Positions 5,091-7,194 of a stretch of DNA of 7,326 nt are shown piece after piece; position 1 is the stretch's first letter, and each line of letters starts with the position of its first letter. The notes below the pieces were generated by a model that worked only from the letters and a program-made list of their open reading frames with translations, had not been told where the DNA came from and did no database searches. Both the position numbers and the translations under genes were made by a program. This stretch comes from Candidatus Eisenbacteria bacterium (GTDB lineage: Bacteria > Eisenbacteria > RBG-16-71-46 > JAFGJU01): contig JAPLKG010000013.1 in NCBI GenBank assembly GCA_026388185.1, forward strand, positions 1 through 7,326, read 5' to 3'.

Positions 5091-5636
5091 ATGGCAAAGA
5101 AGGCGAAGAAAGGCAACGGCAAGGCCAAGGCGGCGGTGAAGCCTGAGCAGACTAAGCAGAACGCAGCGAAGGCTAAGGAGGCCCACAAGCCTCAAGCTCC
5201 CGACCTCGGCGCCCTGCGCAAGCCGGTGCTCGATGCCAACGCTGGCCTGACGAAGGCCGAAAGCGAGGCGAAGGTGCTTCTGGACAAGGCCGAAGCCCTC
5301 GTTGCGGCGGCTAGAGGCCAGTACCGCGAGGCGTTGGGGCTCTACCGCGAAGCCTGCCGGAAGGCAGGAGTGGACTGCGAGTTTGAAGGCGGGCGCTCTG
5401 AGAACGTGAGTCCGAAGGTAAGCTTCATCGTTGAGAAAGCTGACAAGGGCATCCGCGTGATGGTGAAGGGCAAGCCGGAGAGCGAGGAGATCATTCCGCT
5501 GGCAGCGCTCAAGGCATCGATTGGGAAGGCAGCCTATGCCTACACCGAGAAGCACGTGGGTCCGCGAGAGCGCGTTGGCAATAAGGGCGGAACGCTTGGG
5601 AATAAGCTGAGAGCTGTGATGGTGGGGAAGAAGTAG
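5091..5636 (+). CDS. Lysine/alanine-rich protein of unknown function (181 aa)
   Basis: I do not recognise this family. The protein starts at ATG 5091. Residues 1-35 are very rich in Lys and Ala (MAKKAKKGNGKAKAAVK...), like disordered, histone-H1-type nucleic-acid-binding tails. Residues about 40-92 are Ala/Leu/Glu/Lys-rich and probably helical or coiled-coil. Two cysteines, C89 and C96, lie close together. Residues 107-135 look like a beta strand region (VSFIVEKADKGIRVMVKGK). The C-terminal module (136-181) contains AAYAYTEKHVGPRERVGNKG, is strongly basic, and is duplicated at 6408-6548, where the protein sequence is kept at 43 of 46 residues. There is no signal peptide or membrane segment, so a cytoplasmic, possibly nucleic-acid-binding role is a guess from composition only. 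The gene is followed by its own hairpin and looks monocistronic. Confidence 0.75.
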   Translation: MAKKAKKGNGKAKAAVKPEQTKQNAAKAKEAHKPQAPDLGALRKPVLDANAGLTKAESEAKVLLDKAEALVAAARGQYREALGLYREACRKAGVDCEFEGGRSENVSPKVSFIVEKADKGIRVMVKGKPESEEIIPLAALKASIGKAAYAYTEKHVGPRERVGNKGGTLGNKLRAVMVGKK

Positions 5637-5678
5637 TGCGCTGAGTGAGGACCGTCTGTGATAGACGGCCTTGCTCTT
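5496..5678 (+). repeat. Duplicated segment, copy 1 (3' end of the 181-aa gene plus hairpin)
   Basis: This 183-nt segment aligns to 6408-6590 at a constant offset of 912 nt without gaps. The coding part (141 nt to the stop codon) has 21 differences by my count. The 4 nt after the stop differ completely, and the next 38 nt (5641-5678) are identical. Similarity ends abruptly at 5678, where copy 2 meets the intron. Confidence 0.9.
5643..5676 (+). terminator. Strong 3' hairpin, probable intrinsic terminator
   Basis: The arms GTGAGG-A-CCGTCT (5645-5657) and AGACGG-CCTTGC (5663-5674) pair around the loop GTGAT (5658-5662). Two more pairs extend the base (5643-5644 with 5675-5676), giving about 14 pairs with one bulged A at 5651 and two wobble pairs. 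The tail TTCTCATTTT (5677-5686) is T-rich but interrupted, so termination efficiency is uncertain. It starts 7 nt after the stop codon of the 181-aa gene and is repeated exactly at 6555-6588. Confidence 0.7.
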
Positions 5679-5701
5679 CTCATTTTGTGCGCATTGAGGC
5701 A

Positions 5702-5730
5702 TTGACAGGCAGGCACCTCACAGGTAAGCT
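5702..5730 (+). promoter_or_regulatory. Candidate sigma70-type promoter for the methyltransferase gene
   Basis: A perfect TTGACA (-35) at 5702-5707 is followed after 17 nt by TAAGCT (5725-5730), a weak -10 with 3 of 6 matches. It lies after the hairpin and about 70 nt before ATG 5802, the right place to drive the next gene independently. Support is by pattern only, and the promoter consensus of this organism is unknown. Confidence 0.35.
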
Positions 5731-5801
5731 AGCGGTGGCTGATTAAGCAGAGCATGTTGGGCGGAAACGGCGTAAGACGTAGTTAAGCAACCGGAGAGCC
5801 G

Positions 5802-6407: not shown

Positions 6408-6548
6408 CCGCTTGCAGCGCTCAAGGCGTCGATTGGCAAAGCGGCCTATGCTTACACCGACAAGCACGTCGGGCCGCGAGAGCGCGTCGGCAACAAGGGT
6501 GGGACGTTGGGCAACAGGTTGAGAGCTGTGATGGCAGGGAAGAAGTAG
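6408..6548 (+). pseudogene. Truncated second copy of the 181-aa gene (C-terminal 46 codons only)
   Basis: The segment reads in frame to TAG 6546-6548 and encodes residues matching 136-181 of the protein at 5091-5636, with three substitutions (E153D, K172R, V178A). There is no start codon, and an in-frame TGA at 6399-6401 closes the frame just upstream. Compared codon by codon, 16 codons differ silently and 3 change the amino acid. This is the mark of two genes that diverged under protein-level selection before this one lost its 5' part. The sequence just upstream (6391-6407) would read KADEA in another frame and might be a frameshifted continuation, but the match to copy 1 is too weak to claim. 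The methyltransferase stop lies only 39 nt upstream of the homology. Confidence 0.85.
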
Positions 6549-6554
6549 CGATCT

Positions 6555-6588
6555 GAGTGAGGACCGTCTGTGATAGACGGCCTTGCTC
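6555..6588 (+). terminator. Second copy of the 3' hairpin, interrupted by an intron 2 nt after its base
   Basis: The sequence is identical to the hairpin at 5643-5676 (arms around the GTGAT loop at 6570-6574). Here the T-rich tail is replaced after TT by the intron. It may still end the methyltransferase transcript, or it may be weakened. It also fits the stem-loop target used by group IIC introns. Confidence 0.65.
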
Positions 6589-6976
6589 TTGTACGCCCAG
6601 CATGATGTTCACCTTGGAGGTGGAAGTCCTCCCGAAAGCTGGCCATAGCGATCGAAGCGAAGCGCAACTGCGGAAGGGTGACTGACCGTGGGAAGGAAGC
6701 GTGGAGCGAAGCCGCGGGCCGACGTACAGAAACCGGATTGGAGGCGACGCCGATCAGGGCGAGCGGGCAAGTGACCGCGAAGCTCTTATGGTCAAAGATC
6801 AGGCGGCGTAAATCCGGCGGTCGTGCGGTGAAGGGTGCATGTCTTATCTGGGGAGATCTTGCCTTACGTCTGAAAGGGCGACCCCGCTGAAAAGTGGGGG
6901 AGCAAGAAGTCAGCATAGGCCATAATATCTGCCTCAGGCAGAGAAGGGCCGAACAGAAAGGAGAGCAGAGGGAACG

Positions 6977-7078
6977 ATGGGTCTCAAAGGTACAGGGCCT
7001 CAGATGTCCGGGCAACTGGAGCTCCCGTTGGAGGGAGGGGTGAAGCCCCGAGCTACCGGCGGAGCGAGGAAGTACCGA
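6977..7078 (+). pseudogene. Stub of the intron-encoded reverse transcriptase/maturase N-terminus
   Basis: ATG 6977 is preceded by AAAGGAG (6957-6963) and lies where the intron-encoded protein normally starts, in domain IV. The first ~34 residues (MGLKGTGPQMSGQLELPLEG, then GVKPRATGGARKYR) recall the low-complexity leader often seen before the reverse transcriptase domain of such proteins. None of the reverse transcriptase blocks, the YADD motif, the maturase X domain or an HNH domain follows. The frame runs through domains V and VI to a stop at 7235-7237, outside the intron. I read this as an internal deletion of the ORF. The leader resemblance is from memory and is the weakest part of the intron call. 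Confidence 0.45.
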
Positions 7079-7119
7079 TGGCGGCACACGAGACCGGAAG
7101 CTCAAGATTCACTTCCTGA

Positions 7120-7151
7120 ACCGCCCGGTGCGGACCCGCATGCCGGGTGGT
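7120..7151 (+). ncRNA. Group II intron domain V
   Basis: A nine-pair lower stem (ACCGCCCGG 7120-7128 with CCGGGTGGT 7143-7151, one G-U pair) is followed by a two-nt 3' bulge TG (7141-7142) and a four-pair upper stem TGCG/CGCA with loop GACC. This is the domain V architecture. CGC at 7122-7124 can serve as the catalytic triad in the form used by IIC introns. The loop is not a GNRA tetraloop, which may reflect natural variation or decay. Confidence 0.8.
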
Positions 7152-7153
7152 GT

Positions 7154-7191
7154 GGCAGGGGATGTCGGGGCCTACCCGACACCCCTATGCC
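7154..7191 (+). ncRNA. Group II intron domain VI with branch-point A
   Basis: Three stacked stems pair: GGCA 7154-7157 with TGCC 7188-7191, GGGG 7158-7161 with CCCC 7182-7185, and GTCGGG 7164-7169 with CCCGAC 7175-7180, closed by the loop GCCTA. The unpaired TA at 7186-7187 lies on the 3' strand, and A7187 stands seven nt before CGAT's final T at 7194, the normal branch-point distance. Confidence 0.75.
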
Positions 7192-7194
7192 GAT

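Follow-up and report, generated by a model that had tools for sequence, protein, structure and literature searches.

An ORF-less group IIC intron behind a terminator hairpin in a cassette-like array of a Candidatus Eisenbacteria genome

The stretch of DNA analysed here (the window, 7,326 bp) is contig C13 of a Candidatus Eisenbacteria draft genome (G000; 2.62 Mb in 20 contigs, 97.86% complete). Its 3′ part carries, on the forward strand like all window features with coordinates given below for the intron and its exon, an ORF-less group IIC intron of 604 nt (6591-7194; GUACG...CCGAU). The intron was delimited by two Rfam covariance models (RF02001 and RF01998), by a second copy in the same genome having the same ends (copy 2), and by alignment to nine other ORF-less introns. 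RF02001 (group-II-D1D4-3) covers the domain I core (6672-6842; 117.1 bits, E 2.7e-24) and RF01998 (group-II-D1D4-1) a second conserved core segment in the domain III region (6878-6949; 46.8 bits, E 3.1e-6), both scores exceeding the gathering score. Together with the affinity of the reverse transcriptase (RT) of full-length relatives, which is nearest to the GsI-IIC RT, these matches bear out the group IIC-like ribozyme proposed in the initial annotation of this DNA. A further match in this region, a c-di-GMP-I-GGC riboswitch at 6868-6954 (E 0.049), lies far under its gathering score, overlaps the intron core and was dismissed as a chance match.

The terminal 77 nt (7118-7194) fold, as expected, into a pair of hairpins (-51.2 kcal/mol, z -4.8). 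One is domain V (7118-7152), supported also by alignment to RF00029-matching relatives, with a 2-nt bulge and a CGC at 7122-7124, the triplet found in domain V of the O. iheyensis intron; the other is domain VI (7153-7192), in which the unpaired A7187 is the candidate branch point. The Rfam check suggested at the outset was thus successful with RF02001 and RF01998, while RF00029 missed domains V and VI of the window copy and matched only the homologous region of its relatives (30-42 bits), so that the assignment of these two domains rests on the fold and on the homologous ends. The homologous copies begin and end at the positions equivalent to 6591 and 7194. The 5′ end reads GUACG rather than GUGCG; since the full-length Eisenbacteria introns likewise start with GUACG, this is no defect, and the earlier recognition of a 5′ end and of domains V and VI holds. 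Overall, the ORF-less group IIC intron at 6591-7194 is real and well preserved, and it adds a fresh example to an established intron type.

The RT open reading frame has been deleted from domain IV, of which a remnant is left at 6946-7117, as judged from its length and from full-length introns (of G004 and others). Domain IV measures ~170 nt in the window and 165-207 nt in the ORF-less introns (a similarity that the search pattern itself imposed on the 18 scanned loci and that is therefore uninformative), as compared to 1403-1415 nt (~1,410 nt) in full-length relatives. As the initial annotation had claimed, only an N-terminal stub of the RT remains (QLELPL...), matching the first RT residues only; because it is one base short relative to copy 2 and the relatives, even this stub is frameshifted. 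The window intron encodes no RT and is not the retroelement form of group IIC. A hairpin is nevertheless conserved within the remnant (7037-7049, GGGG-UGAAG-CCCC). Over a set of 22 distinct sequences taken from ORF-less loci (including two off-target pattern matches) its pairing is retained in 121 of 198 cells as opposed to 100 ± 5 in shuffles, and none of 5000 shuffles, which ignore kinship, reaches 121; the UGAAG loop is kept while the stems vary. This hairpin may be the RT binding site, as the analogy to domain IVa in other introns suggests.

The 5′ exon ends in a terminator-like stem-loop of 15 pairs (6555-6588; fold z -4.45, with a terminator-like scan match at 6564-6580), which recurs in most of the paralogous units described below. 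It is separated from the intron by two nucleotides (TT), the spacer originally reported, the stem being one pair longer than the 14 pairs then counted. Copy 2 also lies behind a hairpin, as do all relatives with enough 5′ flank (read from their sequences), and the class IIC-like siting behind a terminator is thereby upheld. The position of the insertion can be seen directly in the window. The unit interrupted by the intron (6408-6590) is 87% identical over 183 bp to an intron-free paralogue 912 bp upstream (5496-5678, direct repeat D1), and this homology terminates exactly at the 5′ junction, at 6590, the intron-free copy running on beyond the junction point into the next part of the unit. The repeat supports the 5′ boundary independently of any model.

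The exon-binding site, whose absence from domain I the initial annotation would have counted towards a refutation, was located by covariation. Eighteen related introns were aligned, and the alignment columns were tested against the last three exon bases in the 15 introns with a known 5′ exon. Column 182 was perfectly complementary to the intron's own IBS1 in 12 of the 15, as compared to 5 for the second-best column and at most 9 for the best column in 500 shuffles. In the window it corresponds to EBS1 AAG (6769-6771, domain I), facing IBS1 CTT (6588-6590). Copy 2 has the same AAG/CTT pair, and the relatives show AAC/GTT, CAC/GTG, ACG/CGT and CAA/TTG, a clear covariation. An EBS1 picked by eye (CAAAGATC, near 6796) showed no consistent pairing across relatives and gave way to the column-scan result. 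No EBS3 is claimed: its candidate column (6811) pairs in 13 of 18 introns, yet 6% of shuffles equal it.

The 5′ exon belongs to a cassette-like unit present in ~29 copies in the host genome, in the window (5480-5800 and 6408-6590) and on six other contigs (C1, C10, C11, C14, C18 and C19; L054-L059), with several copies at contig ends; it is absent from 44 relatives. A typical unit comprises the 3′ end of a lysine-rich gene (gene A), a terminator hairpin, a TTGACA-N17-TATGCT-like box and a conserved end (...GGCATAAGCCGTAGTTRGRC), and each unit is typically followed by a different gene (ICMT, DUF4062, histidine phosphatase, TPR, CAAX protease and others). Scanning for consensus promoters gave no call in the unit of the window itself, so the box is no more than promoter-like. 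Near 5 of 17 cassette gene ends, versus ~1 expected, there is a motif similar to the integron R'' box, so that an attC nature of the unit is suggested only; no gene in the host genome passed the integron-integrase cut-off. The array looks like a cassette array and is not established as an integron.

Other observations on this array concern its gene content. Gene A (5091-5636 in the window; ~180 aa with a lysine-rich N-terminus) has several full or 5′-truncated copies in the genome that have the 3′ end in common; it matched no confident Pfam family, and no relative was found in viral contigs. Tyrosine recombinases lie near two of the arrays (L122 1227-3178 on C1 and L123 1037-2017 on C11), none over the integron-integrase cut-off; those of 286 and 326 aa are close paralogues, and one of 281 aa adjoins, by eye, an IS91-like transposase.

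Copy 2 (L002; G000:C4:4693-5336) is likewise ORF-less and is 90% identical overall to the window intron. It is internal to a contig of 70 kb, where it lies downstream of an NHL-repeat-like gene and behind a different hairpin of 11 pairs. Its flanks are unrelated to those of the window copy, which makes separate insertions the simplest reading. The two copies share 97.2% identity in domains I-III and 97.4% in domains V-VI as compared to 93.0% in the ORF remnant (Fisher p 0.035, on 24 substitutions), and EBS1, domain V and domain VI are intact in both. That the core is more alike than the remnant suggests, on these few substitutions, a ribozyme kept under constraint. The deletion end points differ: copy 2 keeps 40 nt absent from the window copy, a stretch that covers its own deletion junction and in which, by eye, something resembling the RT C-terminus is joined to the N-terminal stub. 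One ORF deletion shared by both copies and two separate deletions both fit this pattern. We do not claim the two copies as proof of movement after the ORF deletion, as the window copy lacks the very stretch carrying the junction of copy 2. Adjoining copy 2 is a sequence like the 3′ part of a tRNA (L002 1391-1440, GGTTCGAGTCCTACCTGGGGAGCC); ARAGORN called no tRNA near this copy.

In the full-length relatives of the same class (in G004, G012 and G044) an RT is encoded inside domain IV. The G004 protein consists of RVT_1 and maturase (GIIM) domains only and is closest to the GsI-IIC RT (E 6.8e-140, versus 1.5e-41 for LtrA). No RVT_1 match was obtained in the host genome, nor was a class-C RT found there by protein search; the same RVT_1 family search finds RTs in 6 of 13 relatives. 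Two other Eisenbacteria draft genomes with ORF-less copies likewise yielded no RT, and in the wider scan 9 of the 18 draft genomes with ORF-less IIC introns had no RVT_1 match. The dependence on a maturase in trans that the initial annotation assumed is thus left with no resident candidate in a 97.9%-complete genome, and the full-length relative with an intact RT that it recommended searching for was encountered in other genomes only.

The structure of the assembly bears on the same question. In another genome, G010, eleven contigs (C36, C59, C68, C83, C84, C92, C101, C115, C132, C147 and C156) each have only one end of a related IIC intron, near a contig end, and a multi-copy full-length intron thus probably broke that assembly. 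The host genome has no intron stubs at contig ends and only the two complete intron matches. The failure to find an RT, combined with the lack of stubs of the G010 type, makes a resident RT in the host genome unlikely.

A pattern scan over one genome per species gave 18 ORF-less IIC introns spread over five phyla (Eisenbacteria, Acidobacteria, Chloroflexi, Proteobacteria and Planctomycetota), and the same pattern gave no ORF-less intron match in a viral contig collection. In the ribozyme tree the ORF-less introns are interleaved with full-length ones: L104 clusters with L107, a full-length intron from the same genome (support 97), and L102 likewise with L109 (support 75, with 98 for a wider clade). 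The window intron and copy 2 make up a separate branch in a clade (support 100) that also holds introns of Alphaproteobacteria and Acidobacteria, and L095, an ORF-less intron from Eisenbacteria, stands apart from them. The tree rules out a single origin of all ORF-less introns; these being polyphyletic, the ORF was lost several times.

Two plasmid sequences deserve separate mention. A Rhizobium plasmid (NZ_CP020950.1; L136 2501-3132) carries a complete-looking, unannotated ORF-less IIC intron matched by RF02001, RF01998 and RF00029. An IncY plasmid with phage tail genes (NZ_CP021729.1; L135 2501-2994) carries an unannotated IIC-like remnant without RT, behind a hairpin, the deletion of which extends into domain V. 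Of the 370 plasmid records with a match to the query, 220 belong to Escherichia, and the E. coli ones among the matches listed have a partial match of the same kind.

The reading we favour, with a probability of roughly 65%, is that a IIC intron inserted behind the terminator and then lost its RT ORF (or arrived ORF-less), that its ribozyme was splicing-competent until recently, and that it is now immobile. The intron would have entered by reverse splicing behind the terminator hairpin, with the stem-loop and the three base pairs between EBS1 (AAG) and IBS1 (CTT) guiding it to the target, and a class-C intron RT would have reverse-transcribed it. Its RT ORF would later have disappeared from domain IV, or else the intron would have come in without one, copied by an RT supplied in trans. 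What we observe are a ribozyme core, defined ends, an ORF deletion, a terminator-adjacent position with a matching exon-binding site, and two copies whose sites are not homologous. From these we infer that the intron could splice, how it inserted, that it was mobilised in the past and that a source of RT was lost. To all appearances the ribozyme is intact, and it probably retained the ability to splice until recently. As the assembled genome has no RT, the intron is now probably immobile.

A less probable alternative, although one to be taken seriously, is that RT and splicing activity are both gone and the intron is drifting as a fossil, with nothing selecting for splicing behind a terminator. 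The missing RT and the frameshift of the stub relative to copy 2 fit this reading, as would low transcription behind a terminator, which is to be expected there. It accounts poorly for the contrast between a core that is 97% identical in the two copies and a faster-diverging ORF remnant, and for EBS1, domain V and domain VI being intact in both. We consider it distinctly improbable that the intron is self-sufficient, needing for its splicing either no intron-encoded protein or a host factor, a possibility raised for the Clostridium tetani intron C.te.I1. The genomes described above in which no RT was found (the host, the two other Eisenbacteria and half of the 18) speak for it. These are, however, draft genomes, in which an RT may sit on an unbinned contig or plasmid or may have been lost later, and we know of no mechanism for mobility without an RT.

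Also improbable, if less so, is that an RT outside the assembled bin (on a plasmid, in a collapsed repeat or in a co-resident element) still serves both copies in trans. The ORF-less introns of Thermosynechococcus are documented to have spread with an RT in trans (PMC2882425), and the retained domain IV hairpin agrees with such a service; a multi-copy full-length intron should, however, leave broken ends at contig ends, as in G010, in place of just two complete matches. An assembly artefact or a mis-binned contig is scarcely credible: the intron is followed by just 132 bp of a 7.3-kb contig, but the 5′ exon repeat is characteristic of the host genome, recurring on six of its other contigs, and copy 2 lies inside a contig of 70 kb.

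The interest of the locus is moderate and lies in the absent RT (mildly unusual), the internal empty-site control and the host array. A far-reaching reading, that ORF-less IIC introns persist and splice in RT-free genomes and that the window intron sits in an integron-like array whose terminators (one per unit, often with a promoter-like box) are landing sites for IIC introns, would be a long shot. Should closed genomes confirm the absence of an RT, the rule that ORF-less introns live with a related RT would need revising, and ORF-less IIC introns would offer natural compact ribozymes for testing splicing without a dedicated protein. According to a 2015 review, group II introns without an ORF are rare in bacteria and almost always occur alongside a related RT, C.te.I1 being the exception (PMC4424553). 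Our literature search returned nothing linking group II introns to Eisenbacteria; a 2008 survey of ORF-less introns or a 2007 paper on insertion at terminators may already list ORF-less introns of class IIC.

Among known systems, the bacterial class C introns B.h.I1, O.i.I1 and GsI-IIC have in common with the window intron the insertion behind intrinsic terminators (PMC4424553) and the short EBS1, and their class-C RT is matched in its full-length relatives; they differ in that the window intron has its RT ORF deleted and no RT was found in its genome. The TeI3 introns of Thermosynechococcus elongatus (PMC2882425) provide a parallel for a domain IV deletion with terminal traces kept and for several copies at different sites. 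In their case, however, 17 copies have identical break points and reside beside RT-bearing introns, whereas the window intron has two copies with different break points and no RT was found. C.te.I1 of C. tetani likewise lacks an ORF, and its genome has no related RT, a case described in PMC4424553 as the only exception. C.te.I1 is reported to undergo alternative splicing in a surface-layer protein gene (PMC3919590), whereas the window intron is a class IIC intron behind a terminator. Finally, the class C-attC introns of integrons (PMC7923331) are also IIC-type introns in a cassette-like array; the window intron differs from them in lying behind the terminator hairpin of its unit rather than at an established attC core site, and in a genome with no integron integrase over the cut-off.
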